In this document: piece by piece, positions 15,301 through 63,830 of the stretch
How the letters are laid out: every line of letters begins with the position of its first letter
How positions within the stretch are numbered: position 1 is the stretch's first letter
Source: Ctena decussata
Lineage: Eukaryota; Mollusca; Bivalvia; Lucinida; Lucinidae
Direction: 5' to 3'
DNA length: 64,000 nt
Assembly: GCA_963989385.1 (NCBI GenBank)
Contig: OZ022508.1
Span: 56,273,087 to 56,337,086, forward strand
The notes under the pieces: model-generated
What the model saw: the letters and a program-made list of their open reading frames with translations, nothing else
Told to the model about the DNA's origin: nothing
The model's database searches: none
Position numbers and translations under genes: made by a program

Positions 15301-18300
15301 GATCAGCCCGGCCAGTCTCGTCAGTTTTCGCTATCTACACGGAGCTAGCTCGGATCCTTAGTTACCCTTTAAGCGCACATCGTATGGAAGCCATAGCCTG
15401 GCATGTTTGAAGCATTGTAAAAATTCTAAGTCTTGGAACACATAGGTCTAAATAATGCAGGCCCAGGTCAGCATGCTTCTACTGAGGAAACAGTGCGGAC
15501 CCTGGTCAGACACCGGCCATGGTATACACTGTTTGGCATTCCATCTGCGTTTTTGGACAAATTGCTGCACTGTTACCACAAAGTTTCTGTGTTTAAGACA
15601 ATTATTGTAATACTTTGAGGTGTCCCAATGTTAAGAATTGTTACGGTAGGAGTTATAAGATTTACAAGGACCTACCGCAGCCTTGACGGTTACAGTCAAA
15701 TGACCAGGTCCACAAGCATCTTCCCCTTGTATTAGAAATGTTAATACTTCAGTAACTCTAGCCACCAGACATCTAGTAGTTCGTACATGTTCTGTAAAGT
15801 GAAAAGAAACTGAACATTCAGGAGAGTATCTAGTTTCTTTTACAGCGCTGAGGGTTAAAGGCCCCATTGCTCTATCAACATGAAAACTTTTTATCGTGAC
15901 GTTAATTTATCGCTGTAAGCTTCTCGCTATAGTTTCGTCATTGTAAATGGCCGTGATGAGCCTGCTCTAAACAAATAAAACATCATTGAGTTTCACATAA
16001 AAAGGGTTTGAAAACTTATTTGGGTTATTTTAGTTGGCGACTAAAATGGCCTACTTTCGATTTCAATATGTTGAATAAAATGGTACAAATACAATGTACA
16101 GGTGTGGAGCCCAAATCACTATCCCGCCTATGTTGATATAGCATTCCTAGCCGGGAAACCAGACCAGGAAATTGTGTTTTGTGGCGCGATTCGTTATTTT
16201 TCAAAAACTTGTTTTCTCTTCTTTTTTCCAGTTGTATGACTCAATATATGCACATCAACCCACATTTCATTACCAAACGTGAAGGCTGAACAGCTTTTTT
16301 CAATGATTTTAGTTTAGACGTTTTTACCACTGATAGGACTATTGGGTATTTTAATATTTTAAATAAATAGGCTAGTTGCTGTCGTTCATTATTCCTATCA
16401 CTGGTGCGAAACAAAACGAGGAACAAATAAATAAGCACATTGTGGGCCTGGGCCTGGTGGTTAGTGAGACTGATGTTCTTTGCACACTGAAGCATTCAAG
16501 GGAGAAAACGGCAAAAAACTAAACTGCACCATTTCCGAATCAACCGCTGCATTTCCCGGCTTCTCTTCTATTTTTCGGATATTCTTCCTTTTTATTCATA
16601 ATTCTCATAAGTTCGACTTTCGTCACCCGTTTCATTTTTTTTCACAGCAAAGTATCGAATTTCTATATACGCCCGTTGAAAAAAAAAAAAAAAAAAAAAA
16701 AAAAAAACAAGACCCGTTGCTCAGGTGGGCTTTGTCCTTGCACTGGTTTGGGTATTATTCTACTTTTAAAGTAACTCTAAATAGGCTCAATGATAATAAA
16801 GTACCACAGAAAATATGTGTGAATTGCAGTAAAGTGCAGGGAAAATTTCGTAGCAGTAACTATTTAAAAAATGAATGAATTCTGGGAAATTGACATTTGA
16901 AAGCAAAGAAACATACTAACGGAACAAAAACATTGCCAATCCCCCTCCCGGCCGATGTATGTTTTTTCAATAAAAAGGGGAAGATGGTCTTTTTTCTTTT
17001 GTGTCAGGTTGCCTTCATTTAGCGTCAATACTGTTAGAGTTGTTTGTAAATTCTAAAATAAGAAGGGCACTACATGCAATTCTACAATAACGTACTTGTA
17101 ATAAGATGATGTTTCTTTTTTTAACATTTATTTGACCGAAGGGCAGGGTAAAGACTATGAATGCTCAATTCAAACCTGTAGATTGCCCCTTGCATACTCA
17201 AAAATTCTGTATCTATACAAGTAAAATGACAAAGCAAAGATATCAATTCACTTACTTCCAGTCAATTCAAAATTAGGAGACCCTGTATCAAGCATCACAA
17301 TTTTGCTCTGAGTTTGGTCGTTACCTCTCCTGATGATACCTATTCGATATATGATGTCGTTTATTTCTGTAGCTGTACTTATAGTTATTTTATTATCAAG
17401 GTTGATGAATCCGTCTGAAAGCAATAGTGAAATAAGTATTTCAGTTAACTCTCGTTATCTTAAAGGCTCCATTGCTCTATCAGCATGAAAAAATTTAACA
17501 AGAGGTATCGCTTCAACTTTCTCACTATAGTTGGGTAATTGTAAATGACCGTGATTGGCCTGCTTTAGAAAAATAAAACATCCTTGAGTTTCACATAAAA
17601 AGGTTTGAAAATTTATTTTGGTCATTTTAGTTGGGCAACTAAAATGACCTACTTTCGATTTCATAGAATGGTAAAAATACAATGTACAAGCGTGGCGACC
17701 CAATCACCATCCCGCCTATGTTTATGTACAGTAGCATTGTTAGACGGGAAACCAGAACAGGAAATTGTATTTTTTGGAGCGATTTGTTATTTTCGACAAG
17801 CTTGTTTTCTCTATTTTTTGCTAGTTACAGGACTCAATATATGCCCACTAACCCACATTTTATTGCAAAACGTGAAGGTTGAACCGCCTTTTTTACTTTT
17901 TTTGATTTGAGTTTAGGCGTTTTCACAGCTGATAGGACTATGGAGACTTTAAACACTGATAGCTCAAAGGATATAGTTTTGATAGGTTTCCTGTTTTTCT
18001 ATGAATTTGAATTTCAACTCCAGTAACCTGAAACTACTGGTATGTCAAAGTAAATTTTCTGCAACCAGAGCACTTACTTTGGTTTAAACGATATTTAATT
18101 AACTATAAAACATAAATATACTACAATACAATTTCAAAAGTATCAGGATTTGACAGTAAGCAAAATGCTTATTTACTTTGAGATATCAGTAATTTCAGAA
18201 TCAGAATCAGAATTGTTTACTGGTGATACGTCCAAGGACAATCCTTCACCAGGACCTGTGAATCAGGGAAGCTAGTCCCTAGCCCTTATAAGAGAAGTAA

Positions 18301-21300
18301 ATTTAGTAACTGAATCCTCTGCACCCTCAGCAGCAGAAATAAGTGAATCTTCCAGGGAGTTCCAATCTCTAATGGTCTGGGGGAAGAAACTGGACTTGTA
18401 AATGTCAGTCCCAGCCAATGGGGTTTGAAATGTCAGGGAATGATGATTCCTGGTACGCCTATTTGGGGGAACAAGGTCATTTATGGGTATACTGACTGCA
18501 CTCCTCAGACCTTTGTAAAGCATTATGAGTCTACTATCTTTCCTTCTCTTTTTTAGGGATTCCCACTTAAGTTTCTCCAGAATGCCAGTCATACTCCCAG
18601 TTTCATATGTGTAATTTCCCGTTACAAATCTAGCTGCCCTTTTCTGCACCTTCTCAAGTTCATCTTGAAGAAGTATACTTTGAGGGTCCCAAACTGAACC
18701 GCCATACTCCAGGACTGGACGCACCAGTCCCTTGTATGCTGACTCCTTAACATCTTGTTGGCAGGCTGCCAAGTTACGTCTGAGGAAGCCGAGGGTCCTA
18801 CTTGCCTTTGTGCAAATATTACTGACATGTGTGTTCCATTTCAAATCATTTGCAATGGTTATGCCGAGATACTTGATAGTTTCTACATTACTGAGGACCG
18901 TTCCCTCTAAGGTATAGGAAGCATTGATCTTCTGGATCCGTTTTCTTGTAATCTGCATTATATTGCATTTAACAGCTTGAAATCTCATGCCCCACCTCCT
19001 TGCCCAACAACCTAAACGATATATATCCTCCTGAAGTTTCACCGTGTCTTCAATATCTCTGATTTCACGATAGCAAACACAGTCGTCAGCAAAAAGTCTT
19101 AATTCCGAGTCAATATTTTCTGTTATATCGTTAATGTATAACGAGAACAACAATGGTCCAAGCACGGTGCCCTGGGGGACACCCGACAAAACGGGGCCCA
19201 ATCCGACTTAACTCCATTTACAACCACACGCTGCTGCCTGTAACAGAGAAAAGAATCTATCCATTTCAGAGTCTTCCCACCAATACCATAGCCATATAGC
19301 TTACATTTAAGTAATTCATGAGGGGGAGTGTCAAAAGCTTTCTCGAAGTCCAAGATAAAAGTGTCGACCTGACCGCCCTTGTCCAAGATTTTAGCCCAAT
19401 CATTTATAACCGTGATCAATTGAGTTTCACAGCTATGTTTCTTACGGAAAGCATGTTGTCTGTCTGACAAAAGTTTATGGTCATCCAAATATGCCATAAT
19501 ATTAGAGCAGACAATCTGTTCGAGTAACTTGCATGGTACACAAGTTAGAGAAACCGGTCGGTAATATTGCAAGCCAAAGACCTATCTCCTTTTTTGAAGA
19601 GTGGGCATATATTTGCAAGAGACCATTCCTTGGGGATTTCACCCGTGTCAATGGATTGTTGGAAGAGATGAGCAAACATTGGGCCTAATTCAGATGCTAG
19701 TTCTTTTAAGACTCTAGGATGCAATTCATCAGGTCCTAAAGCTTTCGATGGGTTCAAGCCCTTAAGAAGTTTTGTTACACCTTCTGCCGAAACATGAATG
19801 TCCTCCATGAAAGGAGCCGAGCGATTAGGAAGGGGGACTTGGGTGTGCTCACTTTTGTTAAACACATCCAAAAACTGACCGTTTAATTCATCAGCCTGTT
19901 CCAACTCTGATTCGGCAACACCACCACCATTTCTCTTCTTTAGGGATGGGATACCTTGAGTATCTTTCTTTTGACTATTAATGTAGCTGTAGAAGTCTCT
20001 GGGATTAGCCTTTATGTCACCAACCAAGTTATTGACATACAAATCATGTTGCTTTTTCACATCAGCTTTAATTTCCCTTCTCAAAGATTCAAATTTTGAC
20101 CTAAGTTTGCTACTGCCAGTCTTTTTTGCCTTCGCATGTGTCTTATTTCTTCTACGAATCTTTCTTCTTATCTCAGGGGTTATCCAAGGAACAGAAGAGG
20201 TTGACCTACTGGTTTTAGAGGGGATATGCTTTTCAGCAGACTCCTGAATAAAGGAGGTTATCAAGTCAAAGTTTTCCTGAACTGAGCGATTGTCCGAGTA
20301 ACCATTGAAGTACCTATGTTTTGCGAAGTCTGATACTTCTTTCCTCATTGATTCAAAATCCCCCTTTTGGTACAAAAACACTTTCCTCCGAGGTTTCTTT
20401 TTTGGGGGCACATAAATTTTCAATGTTCCTGATATCACATCATGATCACTAAGTTTGTCTGGGGAATGTAGTTCTTGAAACTGGCCAGGAAGCGAGGTGA
20501 CAATTAAATCCAATGTGTTTTTCTCTCGAGTCGGGAAATTCACCAGTTGTTCTAAACCATGGTCATTCATGACATCAATCAACATTTGTCCCTCTGACTG
20601 ACTTAACACTGATCCTGACTTATTAAGTCGGTCTGGCCAAGCAATATCTTTGAAGTTGAAATCCCCTAGTACATGTACTGAGGGGAGCTTATTTCCCTTG
20701 TGCTTTGTCCTAATATGATCTAACTGATCACGGAACAATTGAAATTCTTCGCTTGAGCCACCAGGTTGACGATACCAGCTTGCTACATAATGAGAAGTTT
20801 TGTTTGCCAAAATTTTAACCCAAACTGATTCTGAGTCGTTTTCTATTTCTGACAAGAGCATGTGCGGAATGTCCTTATGAATGAGAAGCATCACTCCGCC
20901 ACCATGAAGGTTTCTGTCCTGTCTGAATACATTGTAGGGGAATGTTTCAGGGAACAATTCCGAAGTTGCAACTGAACTGTCAATTTGAGGTGAACTATTC
21001 TTCGAGATATCGATAGTTGACGGTAAGTTAGTTATTATTATGACAATAAGATAAGATTTAAAATAACCATAGTTACCGAGTATGTTAAGGCGTCAGCATA
21101 GAAAATGTAGGAAAAATCTAATTTGACAAAAAGTAATCTACAAAACAAAATCCGGGAGTAATTCCTATTATCTAAAGACATCGCATATATTCTGAAACAT
21201 GCACATTTATATTCGGAGCATAGTACTTTTATCATGTAGACTAAGACAGCTTCATTAATAGACTTATAATTACACTCAAGAAAACGAATAACGCTTCAGC

Positions 21301-26136: not shown

Positions 26137-27854
26137 AATGTTTGTAAAACCTCATATTTTCCAACCCATAGGATATGTTTATATTTGGCATGATGATAGA
26201 TATTGGTCCAAAGATTTATTGATACATAGTGGTCGAGGTCATAGTCTTGGATGTTACATATTACATTTCCTGTAAGTTTTCAATCTTTGTTACAGATTTT
26301 GTTTCCATTAGGCATGTTAGTAGATATTGATATATAATGTTTCAATTCTAACACAGCTCGGAGGATTGACTAAGAGGTTTATTATCAATTTAAGATTCTT
26401 AGCTTATATTTTCCTACTTTTATTATAGATTTTTTGTACAATTTGGCTTGACGTTTGACATTCGTCTTAAGGTAGTAAGATACTCAATAACTCTGTTTTT
26501 TTATTTGTTAAAACAAAACAGAGTTACTGTTCATAATGGAGTCGGTCAACTGTGGAGTTTATACAATTATAGCATACACTTACAATGTCTATCGTAATGG
26601 TCCTAAGTTTTCGCGCAGATAGATTTGTACAAACAGCGGAAACCGAGATCAGACTGCTCTTTAGGAACCATTCTGATGTAGGTCTAGACAGTTGCCATTC
26701 CATCTGCGCATTTTAATAGGTTTTACGCTATGGAAGAACCGGAATAACAGGAAAATAAATAGGAAGACAAGGACCGGCTGTGCTTGCAGCAGATGATGCA
26801 GAATGGGCGTTGTCTGTTTTTAGGATACTTTTAAACTTAAAATGTAAGTTTTATTGAAATAATAGGCATAAGCATACCCCATCAATTACATTTACGTGTA
26901 TTTTTCATGAATGTTTTTTTCCATTTAGAAAATTGAGAAAAAACCCACAAACTTATTATCAAGACATAGTATATTTCAAATATTCTATAGTATAGATTTT
27001 TTATATCCAAATGTTTTATAGCTCTTTGGGTTATTTAGCCTGTATCACCGTTGGAATGCCCCGCCAATATTTCTATTCAGTGTCTTTCTACCTTTTAGCT
27101 TTATATCAGTTCCACTACTATGAAAACTTATAGGTCGAGGTCATGGACTTAGATGTTTACATGTGATCATCAAAGTACTACTTAAGTTGACCTGTACAAG
27201 TACTGTCCGTATCAGCTCATATAATAAAATGCGGTTCGGTCTTTACAAATAAATCACATTTAATATTAAAACGTCCTTATGAAAATTTGCTGGAGCAGAC
27301 TGCTGGTATATCCGTTTCAAATAAAGATATATTTTGTAACAGGTGTAAAGTATTCAGTTTCATCCTACGTGCATATAGTTTATAAAAATGTATCATTTTA
27401 CTCAAGGACACTGTCCTGAAAAGCACACTAAGACACTGATCTTTGTGCATACTACGGTAATTACGCTAAATAATGGGTCGCACTGGCTAACTGACATATA
27501 AATTACAGGTTTTACTATCTCGGATCCGGCGATTCTTCAAATTTACTTGCGGAGTAGCGAGAAGAGCCGTTTCTGATCTGTATCCTTACCAGTCTGACAC
27601 TTGAATTTACTCCATTTGCCAAGTCTGTTCCTGTCCTACTTTCAGAGTTATCTCTCTGCCCTTATTTAGTGCGTAGTATTAATTTTAGTAATACAGAAAA
27701 TTCATTTTAACAATAGAAGATCATGAAGTTTGATGAAAATATATTTTAATGAAATTTATAAAGTGTTTGCGAAGGAATAAATTTGATATTACGTGAAGAC
27801 AAACGCAAAAACACGGGTGAACATAGCAGCAGGAATAAATACACAAGACACAGA

Positions 27855-29345
27855 ATGATGGACATCTTTGCCGTTCTCGTTATACTGGTAGCTTTGCTAG
27901 CCTCCTGGCTGTTACTGTCAAGCTACCGGCGCCTTCCGCCAGGACCTTTGTGTCTTCCAATCGTAGGAAGTTTCTTCTTTTTGAGACAACTGAGACGAAA
28001 AAGGACGCATGTTGCACTGCTGGAAGCAACCAAGAAGTATGGCAACGTTTTTTCTTTCCGGATGGGATCACAGCTTATTGTTGCACTCAACGGATACGAC
28101 ACTATAAACGAAGCTCTTGTTAAACAAGCTGATGTGTTTAGTGACAGACCAAATCATCTACCGGCTTTAAAGAATATCATGAAAGATGGTGGTGGGATAC
28201 TTTTCCAGAGCTACAACCAAAAGTGGAAAGCACTGCGAAGATTCACACTTCAAACTTTGCGTGAATTTGGAGTCGGTAAAACATCCATCGAGGAGAAAGT
28301 AATGTGTGAAATAGAAGCTGCTGTGGATGTTTTCAAGAAAACAAACGGCGAACCGTTAGACATCTCGCCAATATTGCAAAAAATGGTTGGAAACGTCATT
28401 TATGGGGTAATATTCGGCAAGAGGTATGAGTTTGACGATCCAGATTTCGATATAATAAGAAGGATGTGTAACACAGTAGTGGCGGGCCAGGGTCTTGCAA
28501 ATCCAGCAAATTTCTTTCCGAAATGGATAACAAAATTACTGGCCAGAAAAGCAAACGAAGAAATCCAAACCCGAATTGATATAATCAGAGACATTAAGAA
28601 ATATATTTTCAAGCAAATACAAGAACATGAGGATACATTTGATGACGACGATATCAGGGACTTTCTTGATCTGTATATACGCTTAACACGAGACCCAGAC
28701 GTAGGCGGGGATGACTTGATCACAAAGGAAAACATGCTAAGAATCATTCTGGAATTGTTTATTGTGGGAGTGGAAACCACTGCTACTGCTCTTAGCTGGG
28801 CATTTTTGTTTTTGGCAGAGAACCCTGACGTTCAGCAGAAATGTCAAAAGGAGATAGATGATATATTAGGTGACAGACTCATAAAATTTTCTGACAAAGG
28901 AAAACTAGTGTATGTAAATGCTACTATTATGGAAGTACTAAGACTTGGTAATGCAAGCCCATTAGGAGCTCCTCATTGCACAGCTAAGGACACTGAATTG
29001 CTAGGATATAAAATTCCAAAGAGAACTCTGATTATGAATAACATCTATTCTGCAACTTTAGATCCTAAACATTGGAAACACCCAATGCGGTTCGATCCTG
29101 AACGGTTTATCAGTTCTTGTGAGAAACTTATAGAGAACGAGGCTTTGATACCATTTTCTGTGGGGCCAAGGATGTGTTTAGGAGAACCATTAGCGAAAAT
29201 GGAAATATTTCTAGCACTTACCAACCTATTACAGAGGTTTTCATTTCAGAAAGAAAACATCGCTGTTATGCATTCCATGGCGCCAAGACCCAACCAATTA
29301 ACAAATGCCCCGATGCCATATAAACTAAGGATAAATGAGCGTTAA
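27855..29345 (+). CDS. Cytochrome P450, probably clan 2 (CYP2-like)
   Basis: A complete, single-exon 496-residue microsomal P450 of normal length. The start chosen is the first ATG (MMDIF), giving an N-terminal membrane anchor at about 3-23 and the proline hinge PPGP at 28-31. Also visible: WKALR in helix C (W124); the I-helix GVETT (305-309), where Val306 replaces the commoner residue before Glu; the K-helix EVLR (E360, R363); PERF (415-418); and the heme-binding FSVGPRMCLG with ligand Cys441. Such enzymes are ER-bound monooxygenases that take electrons from P450 reductase; the substrate cannot be told. Clan 2 is suggested by the I-helix and heme-loop wording. The lack of introns is notable, as many animal clan 2 genes are split; it could be an ancient retrocopy or a natural single-exon lineage. 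No poly-A tail or flanking duplication is seen. Confidence 0.93.
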   Translation: MMDIFAVLVILVALLASWLLLSSYRRLPPGPLCLPIVGSFFFLRQLRRKRTHVALLEATKKYGNVFSFRMGSQLIVALNGYDTINEALVKQADVFSDRPNHLPALKNIMKDGGGILFQSYNQKWKALRRFTLQTLREFGVGKTSIEEKVMCEIEAAVDVFKKTNGEPLDISPILQKMVGNVIYGVIFGKRYEFDDPDFDIIRRMCNTVVAGQGLANPANFFPKWITKLLARKANEEIQTRIDIIRDIKKYIFKQIQEHEDTFDDDDIRDFLDLYIRLTRDPDVGGDDLITKENMLRIILELFIVGVETTATALSWAFLFLAENPDVQQKCQKEIDDILGDRLIKFSDKGKLVYVNATIMEVLRLGNASPLGAPHCTAKDTELLGYKIPKRTLIMNNIYSATLDPKHWKHPMRFDPERFISSCEKLIENEALIPFSVGPRMCLGEPLAKMEIFLALTNLLQRFSFQKENIAVMHSMAPRPNQLTNAPMPYKLRINER

Positions 29346-36581: not shown

Positions 36582-36913
36582 CACAGGGTAGAATCGATTC
36601 CGCTAATTTCGCTTCCTGCAGAGACTGTACATCATATTTGGCTTCCGCCGAGACTGTCCGCGAACTCTTGCTTCCTGCCGAGACTTCTGTACATGATAAA
36701 TGGCTTCCTGCAGAGACTGTCCGTGTGATTCTGCTTCCTGCCGAGGCTCTCGGCAGGAAACAGAATCACGCGGACAGTCTCGGCAGGAAGCCATTTCTCG
36801 AGGACAGTAGTCTCTGCAGGAAACAAGAGTTCGCCGACAGTCTCGGCGGAAGCCAAATATGACGGACAGTCTCTGCAGGAAGCGAAAATTGGCAGAATCG
36901 ATTATACCCTGTG
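36582..36913. mobile_element. 332-bp fold-back element with 5-bp target duplication
   Basis: Two arms of about 166 bp form a near-perfect inverted repeat centred at about 36747 (CCTGCCGAG/CTCGGCAGG). Ends are CACAGGGTA and TACCCTGTG, flanked by ATAAC at 36577-36581 and 36914-36918. Each arm is itself a tandem array of about 30-bp units with GCTTCCTGC(A/C)GAGACTGT. Open frames on both strands (36603-36920 and others) mirror each other because of the palindrome. Confidence 0.9.
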
Positions 36914-39131: not shown

Positions 39132-42100
39132 GTAAGTGAGGGAACAAAATAAATTCAGATTTGAGCAGTGTTTGAAAATAAATAAAATTTAAAAGTTTAG
39201 AGAGAAGTACAAACGAGGAATAGAAAATACCCGGATTAGCAAAACTAATCGACTTTGTGCTTCACATCACTTGTTTGGAGGCAATACAAACTTGTTTGTG
39301 ATAACAAGTAGAACTGAATTAATTCAGTAAAAACTCACCTTTCTCTTACTTTATAGTACTGTAATTCAGTTTTCTGGTCCTTTGGGATCATTGAGACCAT
39401 TCGAAGATTTTTCGAAAACAAAGAGTTATTCTACCGTTTTGGTTTCAATAATGGCTTCATCTAGTTTGATGTATGTGCTTTTATGTTTGTATAGGTCAGT
39501 TTTGTAATTGCTCTGCGATTTGATAGGAGCTTGCGTGTAAATAAAGCAAACTATAAGCGTCACAGACATGCAGAATATTCACTCTTTTGCAGTGAAACCC
39601 ATAGATATCTACATCGATTGTAATGATAACGTCATTTTTTCAATGAATGCAAAGCACGAGTGCAAAAAAAAATCCGAGGTTGTTGTCATACGAAATGAAG
39701 AAACTTATGGTGGTCTATGCAAAAAGAGTGAATGTTCTTTTTATTAATAACTCTCCAAGGAGCCTAAATCTGCTTTTGTTATCTTAGTGCAAAAATGATA
39801 GAATTAAAAGGGTAAAACGATCCTAATGTAGCTGGATGCCGTTTCAAATTTAAAATACGAATAACCATTCTTCTGACCACCACGAAATGTTTTATAGGTT
39901 TGATGACGTTGGCGTTCCCGAACTCGACTCACCGGCTTAACGCAGCAAATGGGTCCAAAGACGCACACCGAAAAGAAAATAAAAGAAACTGAGAAACGTT
40001 CAATAATTTTGTAGTGTGTTAAAGTGTGCTCAGAAACCCATTCCCAAACTTTATGTTTTCGTAACAGATTTGTAGGCATTTGAAATTCTGCAGGAACACA
40101 CGAAGAAGACAGAAGTTTTCTACACATACCAACTAACTGGTATCAGTCACCACTAAAATAATATGGTTTCGGTTCATTGCTATTGCATGTATGAGATTTC
40201 ACTGCTACCTTTATTTGAGCCGCGACACGACAAAATCAACAATGTGGTTGTGCGACCAGCGCAGACTCAGATCAGCCTGGGCATCCGCCCAGTCTGATCA
40301 GAGTCTTCGCTGTCCGCATAGAGGTAGCTTAGACCCTTAGCTACACTTTAAGTGCTTAACGAAGAGTCTGGTCAAACTGGGCGGATGCCCAGGCTGATCT
40401 GAGTCTGCGCTGGGCGCACAACCACATTGTTGGTTTTGTCGTGACGTGGCTCATTTTGCTCTCTTTCAGATAGGTTTATTGGCCTAAATGATACTGTCAC
40501 ACTGAGTTCTAGCACAGAGATGTATGAGTTGGCACACACTATATTTCTTCATGACGTCAACAGAGACATTCCTGCGCAAGGAATAGCTTTCTTTCTCAAT
40601 GAGACATCTCAGTACTTCTTCCTGGAAGGGAGTAAGTAGAAGCTGAAATTAACAACAGTCAATTCTCGATATCTCAAAGTCGAAGTTTTTTTCAAATTAC
40701 TGATATCTCAAATTAATTTTCTGCTTGCAGAAAATTTACTTTGATACACCAGTAATTTGAGATGACAGGAGCTGAAATTTAAAGATAAATAGGAAATGTG
40801 TCAAATCTATATCTTCTGATATAAGAGGATACTTTGAGATGCATGTATCAACCTATATATTTTGATATCATGATACTTTGAGATAGCAATGTTTGAGATA
40901 ACGAAGGTCAACTGTTTATTGTGGAACTTTTTCCCAGAAAGCGTGTGTAACATTGTAAACCTTTTTAGCATGTTTAATTATTTTTTTCTTCTTATTTTGC
41001 TTTATTGTAAGCCATTCATTTCTTGTTTTACTCAGTGACCATCTTAGAACACTTATATATGCATATGCAGAAGCTGTCAGTCAAAGTCCTTTATTTTTGG
41101 ACTTACTCTTTACCTGTTTTAAATGAGGGTGAAATGAAACGATCGCTCACAATAAACATATGTCCAATTTATGGCATTGTGAAATATGTTAACAGGGTCT
41201 GAGATGCCAACAATATGCAGTACAATTTAGGTAGTCATACTTACTATACCGTTCTGCTATATTAGTTTTGACTGTGTATTTTACTTGACCCCCTTTGTGA
41301 CTGTTAGCAAAGACACAAATAAAATGAGTATTTTTCAAAGGTAATTCGGTGTGGGTTGGGGGCTATTTTTCTTTTTGCTCCATTTAAACATACATGTAGG
41401 TTGTGACCCCGCATTGGAATCGTTCAAATGAGGGGTTACGACATACAGATTAATGGCCATTTAACAAAACTTATCTAAGAATTACCTTCAACAAATATTC
41501 ACTTTATCTGGGCCTTTGTGTCACTTATGCTGATCTTCATGAAACTTGCCATGTAACTGTATTTTAATCCTCTCCACAGATTATCTGTTGGTGATTGCGT
41601 GTCTACCTGCCGGACTACATGAAGTACTGACATTCATCATAGAAAGAGACGAAAGATGTGCCCCTGGATATTTGGTTATAGACGTCACCCCTACTGTAAT
41701 TGTGTTTTATTACATCAGTTTTTAAGCCACATCTCTTACAGCCACGCATTTATTTAGTTTAAACATATTTTATTCATAATTTCACTGACCTGCAACATAA
41801 GATATACACAAAATAGAGTTAATGGGATTGGAATGAAAGCAAAATGCTTGTAAAATTCCTTTCCGCATTTATTTATCTAGAGAAGTTACTCCGTGAAATT
41901 TCATTAAATATGTCGTTGCAAATATCATCTATTAGCCAGATTCAAACAAATTGTCAAAGATGACAGACAAGCAAGGGCAGCCACAAAAGCATTAAAAATA
42001 AAGCTGGGATAAATACGATTTTTTTCTTTTCATAATACTGTAACCATTTTATGTCCTGTCAAAAAGACTTAGAGTTAAATCTGATTTCTACCTTTTCATG

Positions 42101-45100
42101 ATACTGTAGCCATTTTTATGTCCTGTCAACAAAAAAAAAAGAGTTTAAACTAATGTTCCTGTAAATTGCCAAAAATTTATAATCAGACGAGACAAAATAA
42201 CAAGGAAAAAACTACAGTGCAATAGAATGACAAATAACAACAGCTCATATCAGCCATGATAAAGCTTTGAAAGTCCATTGACATCGAATCATTACTTTCA
42301 ACGGAATCGTATTATATTGTAGTTGCCTCAAATGGCAGAAGTTATGTATTCAGGTGGCAAATAGAGTTTTGGGTTAAATAAATCAATCGAGAATGCAAAG
42401 GTGAAACGTCATGTTAAATTTGAGTTGTCTTTAATGCAGATAAAAAGAGAACAAAGAGCTCCATAGATTTCAGCCTTTATCGTGAGAGCGGTAGGAAGCC
42501 TTAGCAACATTGAACTCATAAATTTACGGGCTTCATTACGATTAGCATCTATTCTTGTCCAATAATTTTACTGCATATTTCAGGTACCAGTTTTTGATCA
42601 TATTCCTTCTAAAGTTACAGTCGACGTCGACACGTGTTCCGTGGAAGACAGAATAGAAGTGTACAACCTGCGTTTCGAGAAAAAAGAAGACTGCAACGTT
42701 TTCAACTGTACAGTGGTGTGTGTAAATTGTCCAGGAGGGAAGCGGTTTTGGACTAAAAATGGTATGTTTCGAAAGTAGGTAAGGAATAAACCGTGTATCA
42801 TACATGTATACTCATATCAGGCTGGTCCAAAAGACGGTTTGCAGAGCTCAGTTAGCAGTTTCATTCCCACTTGCAGTTTTAATAATGGATAGCCAGAATA
42901 GAACAAAGTGAATAATGCACGGGTTTCATCCAAGCAGAGCATATTAACTTGTTCTTGCTTTAGCTTTGTTGAAGATAACTGCATGATCTTCTGAAGCGTA
43001 ATGTCAATTTAGCTATTTTCAGGACTCTTGTGCTGTCTGGGGTCGGTACTTTTACGTCAAAGCAGACATTTTGACTGAATATTCTTTTCATATAACTAAC
43101 ACGGAATAAAAATGACGACTTGAGAATAATTATTTGTTAATAAAATCTGAAGATTCTGTCCAAAGAATTTCAGGTTGTAATGTCATTGAAAAATTGGCGG
43201 AGCATAGCATAGATCTACCATGCGGAAATACCAATGACGTCATAGATATGTTACCAAGGCACTTAAGATTTTAAATTGATGTCAGAGTGACGTCATCGAG
43301 ACGTCATTGTGCGAAGGCACTAAGTACAAAAGTTGCGAAATCCATAGATTCTATGGTAACAGATGTATGACGTCATTAGTATCGGAGCAGTGTATGCCAT
43401 ACTCTCTTCGAATGATAAGTGAGATGCAACCTGAAATCCATTCAATGGAAAGGTTTCGTTTTCTCAAATAATTTAATTCTTCTTGCATGTGGGTGGCAAG
43501 CAGAAGGCACAATGAGTTTTCAGACTAAGTTGGTCAAATCTAGGTTTCAGCTCTTTAATTATAGTTTTTACTGTTCAAAACCAACTGATTTCTTTAATCA
43601 GAATTTGAGACGCAACAAAATGGCATGTGCACCCAACGAAATCTCAGATCCGCCTAAGCATCCACCTAGTCTGATCAGACTCTCTTCGCTGTGCGCCTAA
43701 ACGGTAGCTAAGCATATGCAACAATGGATTTTTGACTATCCGCATAACCGATAATATGAAAGAAGTCATATGACCTTTAAACAAGTCATATGACTTCTTT
43801 CTGAATCCCTTTTGTATATTGTATTCTTGTTTGTATTGCCTATCTAATAATGTCAAAATGTTGCTTATACAAATAAAATACTGTTTACACTAACCGATAA
43901 TATATTTTGCATTAGCGCTGATGGGGAAGCAATATAAATTAACCAATAAAAACACTATTTCTTGTTTTAAGGTGGTGTTTTGTGGTAAATACAAAAATCT
44001 GCATAAAACCATAAAAAATAACGTACCTCCCTGAAAGTTTGCTGACTTCTTATTTTTGTTGTTCTCAACAGTTTAGAATACAGAATAGAGGGACATGCTG
44101 TTAAAAAAAAGTTTTATATGGAAAAATCAAAGGGCAATTTTGTGCGCATAAATCTAGAAAATTAACTTTATTCTTGAAAATATACTTAGCTCTGAAGTTT
44201 CTTTAATGCATTAAAAAGAGCGTCCTAGCATTTATTTGTTCCAACTCTTTCTCAAATTTGTAAGATAGAGCAGATGAAAACAGTCACTTTTTCTCAAATG
44301 TCTGACCATGTATGGTGCATGTACACTGCATGCATTAATTAAATACAGGTAGAGCAGTTATACCTTTACCATACTCACAGTATACCATAAAAATTCTATA
44401 TATTGAGGCAGTTAGGTCTGAGCAAATAGTGCAAACCCAGATCAGACAGGAGCAGTCTGATCAGGGTCTACACTATTTGCCATCTCATTTCCAATTTTGT
44501 GGGCTCATTACTGCACTGTAAAACCAAACTGTTCTAATTTTAGGACAGTTATGGTAGTTATTTTAGTGTCCCAATATTTAGAAATTTTACCACCATGACA
44601 CAGGTGTGTATATATGAAATTGTTCAACCTTAAAAATGGACTCTACTGTGTATTTTGGCAAATATTTGGAGACAGATGAGACCATTTTTAGCTCACCTGA
44701 GCCGAAGGCTCACAAGGTGAGCTTGTAGTATAGGCTTGGTCCGTCGTCGGTAGTCCGGCGCCCGTCCACACTTTTAAGCATTAATCTGGCCAATCTTGAT
44801 CAAATTTTATGTGTAGCATGGTTGGAGCGGGGGTTGATTGGATATAGTTTTGAGACCGATTGGTTTAAAACTGTGGTTACCATGGCAACAGAAAGGTCCC
44901 ATAGACTTATAATGGGGAAAATGTCCGGGCCCTAGCGTCTTCGTTTTTGATCGCAACTTCTTCAAACTTGCAGGTATCCAGGACATTCAAAACATCTCGG
45001 ACCAGTTCGAATTTGGGCCAGGTTGGATTATTTTTCAGATTACTTGCCCTTGAGCGATAAAATATTTTCCAATAGACTTATAATGGAGAAAATGTTGTCC

Positions 45101-48100
45101 GGGCGCTAGCTTCTTCATTTTTGATTGCAACTTCTTCAAACATGCAGGTATCCAGAACAGTTAAAACATCTCGAACCAGTTCGAATTTGGGCCAGGTTGG
45201 ATCATTCATTTCAGAGTTACTTGCCCTTGAGCGATAAAATATTTTCCCATAGATTTACCATGGAAAAAATGTTGTCCGGGCCCTAGCTTCTTCATTTTTG
45301 ATTGCAACTTCTTCAAACCTGCAGGTTTCCAGGACAGTCAAAACATCTCGGACCAGTTCCAATTTGGGCCAGGTTGGATCATTCATTTCAGAGTTACTTG
45401 CCCTTAAGCAACAAATATTTTCCCATAGACTTATAATGGGGAAAATGTTGTCCGGGCCCTAGCTTCTTCATTTTTGATTGCAACTTCTTCAAACTTGCAG
45501 GTATCCAGGACAGTCAAAACATCTCGGACCAAATCGAATTTGGGCTAGGTTGGATCATTCATTTGAGAGTTACTTGCCCTTGAACGATAAAATATTTTCC
45601 CTTAGACTTATAATGGGGAAAATGTTGTCTGGTCATCATTCTATGGAATGATTTCAGTTGTACTTCACACAAGTGATGAGTATGACAATATCTTGGACAA
45701 GAACGAGTTTCAGTGTTTGTGGGTCAAGGTGAAGGACACAGTGCCTATTTTTAGAAAAACTTTGTCATCGCTGAAGCGCCTTCAATTTGTTGACTGAATT
45801 CAATTGGACATCAATTGAAATGAACAAATTACAGAATGTTTTCTCTGGTTTTCGGCACCAGAGTATGTCAGGGTCACTGATGAGGCTTGAATAGCCGAAA
45901 CTTCGAAGTATGACCCATGTTTCTTCTTTAGAATGTGTTCTCTGCTCTTGAAGGAACTGTTTTAGATTTTAATTTGACTTCACTGCAGCTGATGTTGTGC
46001 CGTGTGGCGGCCGTAAAACGTCTCCCCGTACATCATCTATAGTGCAGATTATATTTTATTTTGTCCTTGGAGATCAGAGGATATATTCTGAGAAATCAGT
46101 AATTTTTATTGATTTAGACATATTCTAGATCATCGCTTTTTATTTCTTTAGACCACTTTCGATACTAATCAGTCTTTAAATCGACTGCCTCATTGAAATG
46201 AACAAATTACAGAATGTTTTCTCTGGTTTTCGGCACCAGAGTATGTCAGGGTCACTGATGAGGCTTGAATAGCCGAAACTTCGAAAGTATGACCCATGTT
46301 TCTTCTTTAGAATGTGTTCTCTGCTCTTGAAGGAACTGTTTTAGATATTAATCATACAAGTGATTAGTATGACAATATCTTGGACAAGTTGGCATTTCAG
46401 CGTTCTTGGGTTAAGGTCAAGGTCACTGTGGCTATTTTTAGAAAAACTTAAACATCGCTCTAGAGCCTTCATTTATGGACCCATTTTGATTAAAACCTTC
46501 ACACAAATGTTAAGTATGACAATATCTTGAACAAGCTCGCGTTTCAGCATCCTGAGATCAAAGTCAAGGTCACAGTGGCTATTTATAGAAAAACTTCGTC
46601 ATCGCACTAGCACTTTCATTTATGGACCAATTTCGATTTAACTTCAAACAATTGATAAGTATGGCAATATCTTGGACAAGTTTGCGTTTCAGCGTCCTGG
46701 GATCAAGGTCAAGGCCACAGTGGCTATTTTTAGAAAAACTTTGTCTAGAGCTTTCGTTTTGGACCGATTTTGATTTAACTTCACACAAATGTTTAGTATG
46801 ATAATATCTTGAACAAGTTTGCGTTTCAGCATTCTAAGGTCAAGGTCACAGTTGCTATTTTTAGCTCACCTGAGCCGAAGGCTCACATGGTGAGCTTATT
46901 GTATAGGCTTGGTCCGTCGTACGTCCACACTTTTAAGCATTAATATTTGCTAAAGTAAGTGGCCAATCTTGATCAAATTTTCTATGTAGCATTGTTAGGG
47001 GGGGGGGATTGATTTAATATTGTTTTGGGCCATATTGGTTTAAAACTGGGGCTACCATGGCAACAAAAAGGTCCCATAGACTTATAATGGGGAAAATGTT
47101 GTCCGGACCACAGCATCTTTAGTTTTGACTGCAACTTCTTCAACTTGCAAGTATTTAGGACAGCCATAAAATATCGGACCAGTTCAAATTTGGGCCAGGT
47201 TGGATGATTCTTGTCTTTTTCATTTTCCACCCTGAGGGTCACAGGTATGATACCGCCTATGTGTCCAATTCGCCTTAGAGTAACTTACCCTAGAGTACTG
47301 AGGCTGAATGGACTCATGTGAGCTACAGGACCAATGGTCCTCTTGTTTATCGGCCCAGCCTGAAAATGTGTGAAAAAAATGGAAAAAATAATTGCTAGGA
47401 CGCTCTCCATAATGTATTAAAGAACCTTCAGACCCTATTATATTTTTAATAGCGATGCTTATTTTTCAGATTATTGCGCACAAAATTGCCCTTTGAAATT
47501 TTCTTATATAAACCCTTTTTAACTTCAACAAGTCCTGCATCTTTGAATTCTGAATCATGCGAAACAACATAAAGAAGGCATCTGCTAATTTTGTGGAAGA
47601 TCTGTTATATTGTCAGCATTTTATGCAGATTTTTTACTTCGCCCTAAATCAGTGATTATCACCACCTTAAGGTGCTGATAGCTTTTAAAAACAAAATTCT
47701 TCAGCTTTTTATAGAACATTTTTTCAACATTTTGATTTTTCTGACACATTAGTCCTTCTTAGACATGAGACACTGCCATAGCGCGGTGGCTCAGTGGTTA
47801 GTGCACTTGACTCTGAAGCCAGAGGTCGTGGGTTGATCCCCACCCGGGGCGAAGTCTTCCTATGTCCGAACGCGTTTTTCTAGCATCAGTTGCAGGGATG
47901 ATGTTAACAAGTGTGCCGTCCTTCGGATCGGGACGTTAACTGGAGGCCCCTTGTGCAGGAAGAGTCATCCCCTGTGTAGGTTTAAGACCCTACTATAGCT
48001 ACATGGCTATATGTAGGCTTTCATCCTGCAACACCGGAGTGTACACAAGTATACCGTCTGTGTCCCCCTCGGGGATTAAAACGTAATGGAAGATGGATAG

Positions 48101-48886: not shown

Positions 48887-51800
48887 TGGATTAGTGTTCG
48901 CCTTAAGCAGGAGTCGTGGGCTCGCCTCCGATCAGTACACGTCCGATTATTATTTTCAATCAACCCACACACACATGCACGCACGAACACATATATGCTA
49001 TAAAGCTTCTATCGGACAAAGCTATGAAGGCAATATTTTGTATAAGAAAAATACTACTTTCTGACAGACTTAATATTTTGCAACACATAAAATTATTTGA
49101 AACATGTGTAAGACCCATTTTGCTTTATTGTAGTGAATTAACTAGCATTGACGTTATTATTAGAGACAAAATTGACATTGAAAGCAGATACCATCTTTTT
49201 ACATCGGAAAAGATCCTGATCAAGTTTTCCAAAATGGTCTTAGGGGTCAACAGATCAGCAGTCAACTCTGCCGTGTTAGCAGAACTAGGTCTTTTACCTA
49301 TATCTGTAAATGCCTTAAAACTAAGTATAGGCTTTTGGTTGCATTTATTAGAAAGTGGCGAAAACAATATAGCAAAAAAGGCATATCTTGACAGTATCAA
49401 TATAAAAAGAGGTTACGGTGGTGACATTAAATCTTTTTTTATACCACACTGGTTTTGGTCATATTTGGGAACACCAGTCAACTTTTAGTAACGCCAAACT
49501 AACGAAGGCCATTTGTAAAGTCCTTTCTAATAGATATAAAGCCTTTTGGAAAAAAGGTTTATTCAATGATGATAGAACCTCAAACGGCAACAAACTGAGA
49601 ACTTACAGAACTCTTAAGACTGATATTGAAATGGAAAAATACCTTCTGACAGATATTGATAAGAAAGCTATTAACATCTTTGCTAAAATTAGAATTAGTA
49701 ATAGTAAGTTGTGTATTGAAGAAGGTCGTTTTCAAAAAGTTCCTCTTGAAAGCAGAATATGTCGATTGTGTAACAATGGAGTTGAAGATGAAATGCATTT
49801 TATTTTAAACTGTGCCCAACTTAATGGAGAGAGAAAGATCATGTTCACTGAAATTGAAAATTGCTTTCCGTCTTTTAGTTCAATGGATGCGTCTGATAAG
49901 TTCAAATTTATTTTAGGAAGTAATGATTCTGATTTGACTAAGATATGTATTAGTGGGGTCATAAGATGTATTTGTTGAGACAATCGTTGAATAATAGATA
50001 ATTATTAGCTTGAAATATGAAACTGTATTAAATTTTGTAAGATGAGTCCAGTAAAGCTTCCTCAGCGGTGACCATTACAAAGTTATTTGATTGTGTCATG
50101 TATCATTGTCAGAAGGAACAGTGCCTTTTGCACCTTTTTATTTACAGTCTATTATAATTGTGAAGAGCCAGTTTATAACACTTTGAGTGACTGTGATCAT
50201 ATCATAAGAACTTACAATACTTTAAATGATAGTAGATTTCTTAGCCTAATAAAATGAAATTATGGTGTTGAGTTTAATGATGAAGTATAGAAAAGGCATT
50301 GTTGGCTTCTGATAATTGTACAGCAGATCGTATACTGTGTATATTTGTTAACTTGCTCCTTTTTAATGCCGTACTTAGTTATTGTAGTTAGTTATTTTAC
50401 ATGTTTGTGTTTGTCTTGGTAACAATCCTAATTTTGTAAGGATTTAACCAAATAAAATTGACTTGCCTTGACTTGACTTGACATACGCACCGCCCATGCT
50501 TAATCAAACACGACTGGACAAAGCATCCGTTCACGAACAGGATCACTCAAACTGAGTCTAATTTGTCACTCCTGTCGTTGTACCAAGGTAATAATTCTTT
50601 TTATATACCCTTAATTAAGTCTAAAATGTGTAACCATTATCCAAATGTTCAGATCGTATTTAAGTTATGTGGTGTTTAAACCTATAAGTGTAGGTTATAT
50701 ATCTTCAAGTGTTCGTCACATAAATAGGAGCACTGACCTTTACAGTTAAAACAAGGGTGATACATTGGCAAACGTATGCTTTCTAAAATCAACAGTTGTA
50801 ACTAATGTGTTAATAATAGAAAACACAGTGACCCCAAATGAAGACTACCGCGAAAGGGTGTTACACCATACCTGCAGCTTTTATGTCAGATCACCTAAGA
50901 ATCTGTGTAACTTATGTTTTTTAATCGCTAGTTAATGCTTGGACAAAAAAGCCAATGCGCTTGGAACTGTGCTTATTGACGTTATTATGAGGTGCCGTTT
51001 TACTATACTGAAATCCCCTTTTTGTGATATCAATAATTCTATTTTGTAATGTTACTAATTCACTTTCGATTTGTGATATCAGAAACATGTTATTTATAGT
51101 AAAACAATACTTCATATATTATTAGGTACATCTTACTCATACGGAGACATTTTTAGCTGTTTGATCAAGGGAATTAAGTGTGTCATCGTACAGAAAACAA
51201 AGTTTAAACAACATTTTCAAATATAAACAGTCGGCTATAAGCAAACTGTATGAAAATAAGAAAAATGAATTGCTTGTCAAAGTAGTGAGGTTTCTATATT
51301 TTTGTTTCAGAAACAGTAATTGTGGCCTCTTCCAAAAATATTCGATTCGGACATCCTCACAACCTTCGGATTATATGTGTTGATGGAAGCTTGGCTGGGC
51401 AGCAGTTTGACAACTCACAGGTAACTGCATTTGCTGAACTGACTGTGGAGTTTGAGAAGCTAAATACTGTCACATGTTCGGTGCCAGTAGTAACATCTCC
51501 AAGCACTACTGAGGGTTCAGCTTCCACTGAAACATCACCTGCAGAGACGCATAGTAGCACCACTGTGCTAACTACTGCAAAATTGTCGGTTAGTTCATTA
51601 AAAACGACGACAATGGCTTTGACGTCTCTGTCGACTAAGAAGTCACAACTAAATAAGTCGACTACGACCATGCAAAATGCAAATCAGGAAAAACAGATTA
51701 CGACGAGTCCTCCAAGACCGATGAAAACGACCATGAATGATGCAATTGCAAGTACACATGCAACGAAAGAATTGTCACAGTCAATGACTACTACAGAAAC

Positions 51801-61992: not shown

Positions 61993-63410
61993 TAAGGTCA
62001 ATGGATACACCCCCAAGGGGGATAACTCTGGCTTCAAAATATTTACCTCCCTCCTTGTAGGCGGTACAGTTTACGAGGCGATTCCGATGAGATGTCACAA
62101 CATATATTTCAATCTAACCTAATGGAATATCATCTCAAATGATCGTCAAGTGCTACTTATTACCTACATTCCTGCATGATATTGGACACAAAGCTCCGGG
62201 TGGCGGGGCTTAAGCCCCAAGCCCCACCCTCTGGATCCGGGGCTGCTGATTTGAGATGAATGGATACATGTACAGCATTTTTACAAGAATGACAATTTTA
62301 AATGAATAACATTTGATTCTCTGGTTTATTGATGGCTTTTTCAATGCACACAGGGGCTACACTTACAGAAAAGAATTTGCTCTGTAAAGAAAGAAATCTT
62401 TTTCCTTTAACCCATATGTGCCTAGTAGACAATCTATCCTTATAACTGGATGAGTTCATCTATCCAAAGCTCTAGATAATAAGGAGTTGTTACGACCTGG
62501 CAGTGGTAACAAAAAAAGATGGAAGTAAACCAGCAACAAGCCTGTTTTAAAACTTAACAAAATTTATTTACATGTACATCAAAATTAAAACAGTCATTGA
62601 TCAATCAAGAAAATATGTAATTTACGATACCTTAAATTATCCTGAATGTCCCTCAAAGTGTCCTATTTAAAACACAAGTCCTTTCACAATTTCTGATCCC
62701 AAATATTAAAGTCAGCAGAATATTCCAATAATCCCAGAATGAAAGTCACAAAGTAATCCAACATATTTAAATTCCAGTATAACTTATTTAACTATAGACT
62801 GGTGAAATTTACAAAGATGACTAAAGGAAAATTTGTGGTCTTTATATATTATCTAGGAACATTCAGGAATTAACCAGTGATAGATTTTACCAGACAGTTC
62901 TCAATTATGACATTATTTTATACCAGAAGATTCTTAATGTTTACAACTGAAATTTCTATTATTTTCTACATTACTAAAATTAGATATCCTAGAAAATTCT
63001 CGAAACATCTTGAAAGTTCTCAAAGTTTTCTGAAGCTTCCACAACATTCTTTTGACAATGGGGAGCAAATTCCAGAACTTTCCAGACAATTCTTTCTGTA
63101 TCAGGAACATTTTGAAGATTCCCCAATTTTCCAGAATGTTCTAAAGTACAGTGTAAACAACTTGTTTATTTCAAACCTAGTAAACATCTAAAAACTGCAA
63201 AATCATGGTAAAAGAAAATATTTACACCAAATTAAACACCATATTCATAAAAGAGTATTTGGAATATATAACAAAGAAACTAACTATGGCGATAGAAAAC
63301 TGTTCATAATCTATCAGTTTGATTTTGAACAAATTATAGTCTTAAATAGTTCCTTCAAGAGCAGAGAATGATTTTGAACAAAGTATATTAAAAAATGTAT
63401 GGCATAGTTG
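61993..63410. other. Unassigned sequence near right edge
   Basis: No exon or repeat family recognised with confidence. Two inverted GGGGCTTAAGCCCC-type words lie near 62205-62225. AGCTCTAGATAATAAGGAG at about 62469 resembles one end of the fold-back at 63614. The plus open frame at 62877-63191 has no motif. Confidence 0.45.
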
Positions 63411-63613
63411 ACCTTTCACATGGTAAAGTTTATTTTGCCAGGTAACTTTGAAGAGAATCTTTGTTTGTGTGAACACTGCTGCTATTTATTTCTGACTCAT
63501 TCAGTCATGATAAGAAATAACAAAGAGCGTGGGAACTTCAAGCATTAAAACCGCATCCCCGCCCCCGCCCTCACCCCATCCTCCTCCAAGTAGTCCTATC
63601 TATGGGAGTCTTA

Positions 63614-63830
63614 ATAAGAGCTCTAGATAAGAGGGTCTATTTGGTGATAATAAGGGATAATTTTTGTTAATTCTGCATAAAAACATATGTTGTGACCCCT
63701 CATCTGAACCGTCTCATCGAGACGGTTCAGATGAGGGGTCACAACATATGGTTTCGATGAGAAATAAAAAAAAAATATCCTTAATTATCATCAAATACTC
63801 CCTCTTATCTAGAGCTCTGTTAATGCGCAT
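63614..63830. mobile_element. Fold-back MITE with AGAGCTCTAGATAAGAGGG ends
   Basis: The left end AGAGCTCTAGATAAGAGGG pairs with CCTCTTATCTAGAGCTCT at right, and ATTTGGTGATAATAAGGGAT pairs with ATCCTTAATTATCATCAAAT. The centre is a perfect 31-bp-arm hairpin (CATATGTTGTGACCCCTCAT and TGAACCGTCT against its complement) around ATCG at about 63717. 217 bp in all. Confidence 0.9.

Follow-up and report, generated by a model that had tools for sequence, protein, structure and literature searches.

A retrozyme-like insertion with paired type I hammerhead motifs in the bivalve Ctena decussata

A 537-bp insertion in a tandem array

We analysed a 64-kb stretch of Ctena decussata DNA (hereafter the window) and found on its plus strand a 537-bp element (45814..46350) comprising about 1.4 copies of a 379-nt unit, with limits set by repeat alignment, empty-site alignment and unit positions. 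Repeat alignment places a left direct repeat with hammerhead copy 1 at 45814..45973 and a right direct repeat with hammerhead copy 2 at 46192..46352, overshooting the inferred end of the element by 2 nt. Between them lies the central, single-copy part of the unit (45974..46191, plus strand). Counted from the ribozyme cut, the element runs through unit positions 282–379, then a full unit, then positions 1–61. The two repeats are 98.8% identical over 161 aligned columns and differ in two places: copy 2 has one additional A in its stem III loop, and a T/A difference lies near the 3′ end. The repeats of 154 and 155 bp reported as near-identical in an earlier note on this DNA align over 155 columns at 99.4% identity, with one indel. 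The unit has a GC content of 37%. No open reading frame of at least 85 amino acids lies between 43700 and 46982, thus none overlaps the element or its central part, in agreement with the earlier statement that it holds no reverse transcriptase. By simple sequence criteria we found no LTR ends, PBS or PPT at the element.

Two adjacent tandem arrays occupy this region (44897–45629, units of about 177 bp; 45665–46848, units of about 147 bp), and the element lies inside the second. It is bounded by a 4-bp target-site duplication, ATCA, with its left copy at 45810..45813 and its right copy at 46351..46354 (plus strand). When the flanks were joined with a single ATCA, they aligned to three neighbouring stretches of the ~147-bp array with no gap at the junction. 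These stretches overlap one another, and one of the three alignments has two extra bases five positions before the junction. Because the joined flanks match the array without a gap at the junction, we conclude that the element is an insertion; the concern that it might be the unit of a simple tandem array is thereby answered. The 4-bp match of ATCA is weak evidence taken alone, and the insertion claim rests on the empty site. Of the limits first proposed, the start at 45814 stands, and the end at 46346 moves four bases outwards to 46350 in the empty-site alignment. No better candidate than ATCA emerged when the junctions were searched for flush direct repeats. We discarded a longer duplication seen by eye, CATCAATTG against CATACAAGTG, which would require one gap and one mismatch although the direct repeats are 98.8% identical.

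Both direct repeats carry complete hammerhead motifs

The hammerheads lie on the plus strand at 45871..45916 (copy 1) and 46249..46295 (copy 2); stems, types and the cleavage triplet are named here by the standard hammerhead scheme. Each copy contains CTGATGA, followed by stem II (GGCT/AGCC, 4 bp with a 5-nt loop) and GAAA, together with a perfect 6-bp stem I (GGGTCA/TGACCC), a GUA (GTA) cleavage triplet and a minimal stem III of A-U, C-G and U-A pairs, to which copy 2 adds one extra pair. The topology is that of type I hammerheads, with short loops closing stems II and III and an open stem I. The predicted cuts fall after 45910 (between GTA and TGACCC) and after 46289. Every motif part claimed in the earlier note is present in both copies, and the cut sites are separated by the 379 nt that it gave.

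Two complete hammerhead motifs are far above chance. A strict type I descriptor matched twice on the plus strand of the 64-kb window and not at all on the minus strand, and had no match in 20,000,000 simulated bases (first-order Markov sequence with the dinucleotide make-up of the window). A relaxed descriptor, requiring only the A-U pair of stem III, returned the identical two matches in the window and 1 per 10,000,000 simulated bases. The bare core pattern without pairing was less telling, with 2 matches against 0.19 expected and a count of 2 reached by 1 of 100 shuffles.

The Rfam covariance search that had been suggested as a check gave a weak answer. In a search of 901 nt both copies matched Hammerhead_3 (24.2 bits, E 0.014) and were the best 2 of 10 matches by E-value, but the gathering score of 48.5 bits was not reached. 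The search keeps the best of related families only, and the 24.2 bits refer to Hammerhead_3, not to the type I model. Neither hammerhead had a match at Rfam gathering thresholds, and a whole-window search at E ≤ 1 returned no hammerhead among its 19 matches. It is the explicit motif, and not Rfam, by which we identify the hammerheads.

The predicted RNA monomer and its folding

The two cut sites predict an excised 379-nt monomer, or RNA circle, spanning 45911..46289 of the plus strand. The linear monomer folds better than its shuffles (z −4.4; 0 of 100 as good), and the circular fold reaches −98.7 kcal/mol against a shuffle mean of −78.3 (sd 5.1), a value attained by 0 of 100 shuffles; the circular fold was computed from a sequence shifted by one base, which gives the same circle. 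With 59% of its bases paired, the circle is less paired than the retrozyme RNAs described in the part of PMC4918200 that we draw on (more than 70%).

The hammerhead itself is not favoured by folding energy. An 85-nt stretch around ribozyme 1 was no better folded than shuffles (165 of 200 were at least as stable), and the hammerhead was absent from the minimum-energy fold in all four stretches tested, namely ribozyme 1 at three lengths and the whole element with both ribozymes. Forcing the hammerhead cost 0.9, 1.7 and 2.0 kcal/mol at the three lengths, and forcing both hammerheads in the whole element cost 4.5 kcal/mol.

A truncated second copy shares the 3′ end of the insertion

The unit is present at two loci within the 64-kb window. 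When the element was compared with the window by blastn, one strong match lay outside the element itself (63330–63368, minus strand, 89.7% identity over 39 nt, E 2.4e-9). After it came a 25-nt match at 18171–18195 with E 0.097. The strong match contains a 35-nt, 5′-truncated piece of the unit (63334..63368, minus strand), which a hand count places at unit positions 28 to about 62, flanked flush on both sides by a perfect 14-bp direct repeat, TTTGTTCAAAATCA, which we read as a target-site duplication (minus strand; 5′ copy 63369..63382, 3′ copy 63320..63333). Exact 14-mer pairs within 100 bp of each other number 24 as listed for the window; 22 overlap or touch tandem arrays, and the only listed pairs clear of such arrays are the flanks of the 35-nt piece and a pair at 42047.

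A 29-nt tail pattern, composed after the fact to fit these copies, had 3 matches in the window at up to 3 mismatches (2 of them inside the element), and none of 100 shuffles had any. Searched in prokaryote genomes, it gave a single match, in a Butyrivibrio MAG, where the bases beyond the pattern mismatch, and which we take as chance; two forms of the pattern had no match in viral contigs. A loose hammerhead pattern matched at least 120 stretches of viral contigs; at such looseness some matches by chance are to be expected.

The 3′ ends of the 537-nt and 35-nt copies fall at one unit position (61–62) to within 1 nt, whereas their 5′ ends differ, at unit position 282 in the main element and at 28, counted by hand, in the short piece. 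Their target-site duplications also differ (4 bp and 14 bp). Insertions that share a 3′ end but vary at their 5′ ends are characteristic of target-primed reverse transcription in which 5′ parts are lost, as in non-LTR elements. The two insertions thus suggest target-primed reverse transcription beginning inside the RNA. Moreover, the inserted sequence ends about 61 nt beyond the ribozyme cut, so that copying would have begun internally and not at the 3′ end of a cleaved monomer. Alternatively, the 35 nt could belong to another element that has this tail as well, and a shared 3′ end would follow in that case too. The 3′ end common to the two insertions is the part of this locus worth following.

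Comparison with known retrozymes

Metazoan non-LTR retrozymes, as described in the portions of PMC7229834 (Cervera and de la Pena 2020) used here, have type I hammerheads and low GC (below about 45–50%), are without LTR, PBS or PPT, lie in repeats of more than one unit and in many genomic copies, form circles of about 170–400 nt, and have target-site duplications that, when present, exceed 4 bp. The element has the type I core, a 379-nt unit present 1.4 times, 37% GC and no open reading frame of at least 85 amino acids, and its monomer, more stable than its shuffles, resembles the published ones in this too. We therefore consider it very probably a non-autonomous metazoan non-LTR retrozyme, and the retrozyme-like identity first proposed fits both its anatomy and the published examples (PMC7229834 and PMC7761336, each as far as excerpted here). 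Against this identity, the 4-bp duplication of the main insertion is short for such retrozymes; that of the truncated copy measures 14 bp.

The closest likeness is to families of Mytilus galloprovincialis described in the same portions of PMC7229834, which share a mollusc host, type I hammerheads, units of about 350–390 bp, low GC, non-coding sequence and repeats of more than one unit. They belong to another species, and we likened them by description, not by sequence to the circles MN642551–MN642576; the element here stands alone, as an insertion of 1.4 units whose ends are defined and for which there is an empty site. The kind is already known: mussel retrozymes of about 350–390 bp have been published, with hammerheads of type I and RNA circles. 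The element is for this reason less novel than first rated. What it adds is a bivalve example in which both hammerhead motifs are complete and the empty site is readable. A literature search made mostly through listings, with subscription papers outside its scope, found neither a clam retrozyme nor a fixed internal 3′ end in one.

Hammerhead repeats of Nematostella, a cnidarian, have 15-bp LINE-like duplications (PMC4918200, 2016, in the part used), close to the 14 bp at 63320–63382; the likeness is one of duplication length, not of sequence. The excerpts of PMC10886601 used here added nothing on animal retrozymes.

A model for copying of the element and its alternatives

We propose the following route. 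Read-through transcription would yield an RNA carrying two hammerheads, both of which would cut and free the 379-nt monomer, which a host RNA ligase would close into a circle. A reverse transcriptase acting in trans, most likely from a Penelope-like element, would use nicked target DNA as primer and begin copying at one fixed position inside the RNA, some 61 nt downstream of where the cut ends were joined. It would copy the circle for 1.4 turns (main element) or for 35 nt (the copy at 63334–63368) before stopping. Cleavage and circle formation we consider probable. An internal start of reverse transcription at a fixed site, suggested by the two insertions, seems to us an even proposition, and a Penelope-like partner somewhat less assured than that.

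Since the main copy exceeds one unit and crosses the cut junction twice, its template would have been either circular or an uncut multimer. Accordingly, the template of the retrozyme might have been a linear transcript of two or more units that was left uncut, and not a circle. The repeats agree with this in differing at two places, an indel and a substitution, so that origin from a single circle is not required, and unprocessed RNA was judged the dominant substrate of a Penelope-like enzyme in vitro (PMC11167929, in the sections we cite). However, two complete hammerhead motifs should cut long transcripts, and in mussels circles outnumber linear forms (PMC7229834, same portions). We regard copying from an uncut transcript as improbable.

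A miniature LTR retrozyme of the plant type, with the 160-bp repeats as LTRs, an LTR retrotransposon as mobiliser and a 4-bp duplication as the result, would account for the long direct repeats, which contain hammerheads and surround a non-coding centre, and for ATCA, much as in plants, where duplications are of 4 bp (PMC4918200, same part). Plant LTR retrozymes there have type III hammerheads, circles of about 600–800 nt, a PBS and a PPT, none of which we found here. The hammerheads are of type I, the repeats lack a TG start and a CA end, no TGG begins in the 33 nt that follow the left repeat, no purine tract precedes the right repeat (longest purine run 3 in 25 nt), and the second copy is 5′-truncated with a 14-bp duplication. 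These features make an LTR retrozyme highly unlikely. Least credible of all is a satellite-like or segmental duplication in which the hammerheads are mere relics, as might be thought from the adjoining ~177-bp and ~147-bp arrays, against the empty-site alignment that indicates insertion into the array, the lack of any blastn match between element and array units better than E 0.3, the completeness of the hammerhead motifs and the existence of a dispersed copy (63334–63368).

A broader and rather doubtful extension is that animal retrozymes are copied from their RNA circles by a Penelope-like enzyme that recognizes a tail about 28–62 nt downstream of the ligated junction and always starts there. 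If this were true, the role of the hammerhead would be to bring the tail into a closed template, and insertion 3′ ends compared genome-wide would show where copying starts and which element is the partner. Should the internal 3′ end prove fixed in more copies, it would be a marker of the partner and a direct test of the Penelope hypothesis.

Penelope-like elements and other candidate partners

Penelope-like elements are named as a strong candidate for mobilisation in the portions of PMC7229834 used here, and the 2020 review PMC7761336, in its excerpted text, states that animal retrozyme repeats have no conserved motif from which to deduce a partner retrotransposon. According to the cited sections of PMC11167929, an Anolis Penelope-like enzyme starts reverse transcription in vitro inside its RNA, 111–118 into the ORF, whereas its hammerhead is cut at 26 downstream of the start codon; this internal start occurs on AT-rich DNA. 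Genomic copies may carry a tail of 30–40 bp, which matches the stretch separating the two start sites. Ribozyme mutants left insertion unaffected and the ribozyme cut only when protein was added, which argues against a need for cleavage in that system.

As in the element here, the Penelope-like system of those sections has a hammerhead in direct repeats, termed pseudo-LTRs, and insertions that end internally, tens of nucleotides past the cut. Its main start lies 85–92 nt past the cut, compared with about 61 nt here; a site 30–40 nt nearer the cut would fall at about 45–62, an arithmetic that is ours and not that of PMC11167929. Penelope-like elements have hammerheads without stem III (PMC7761336, same excerpt), unlike the element here, and have an RT frame, with or without GIY-YIG, between the repeats, whereas no open reading frame of at least 85 amino acids is present in ours. 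The likeness to the Penelope-like internal start is a lead and not a test. Although 11 of the 14 bases of the longer duplication are A+T, this is not telling with respect to AT-rich Penelope targets, because the window itself is about 62% A+T.

Among the 18 of 63 window frames of at least 85 amino acids that were scanned with Pfam, none had a Penelope-type RT or GIY-YIG domain, which speaks against the reservation in the earlier note that the repeats might belong to a long Penelope element. The only RT in the 18 scanned frames is that of a broken LINE (18272–21092, minus strand), a non-LTR retrotransposon that retains pieces of its Exo_endo_phos_2 endonuclease and of RVT_1 in three overlapping frames. 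We considered it as a partner and did not accept a shared tail, because the match at 18171–18195 lies near the LINE 3′ end but corresponds to the middle of the unit. At 48907–49978 (plus strand), two overlapping frames resemble by eye the C-terminal region of a LINE protein, including a Cys/His motif, and had no Pfam match.

Other features of the window

The pair of 14-mers at 42047 is an exact direct repeat, TTTTATGTCCTGTC, with copies 67 bp apart (42047–42127), possibly marking another short insertion with a duplication. An open P450 reading frame occupies 27762–29345 (Pfam p450, E 2.3e-111). It has 268 relatives; the best among the 120 listed is 96% identical, and of the named relatives among these 120 with at least 97% coverage, those from Mercenaria mercenaria come first, at 43–49% identity. 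The P450 frame thus points to a bivalve source, probably a heterodont clam.

Low-scoring miRNA-like matches in Rfam were taken as palindromes or simple repeats. A palindromic, MITE-like structure with inverted arms (AGAGCTCTAGATAAGAGGG...) extends over about 63610–63820, with limits set by eye, and encloses a nested palindrome (63662–63772) that gave a weak MIR7533-like match. Imperfect tandem and inverted repeats surround GCTTCCTGCCGAGACTGTCC at 36611–36889, and within them 36698–36796 gave a mir-3913-like match on both strands, below the gathering threshold.
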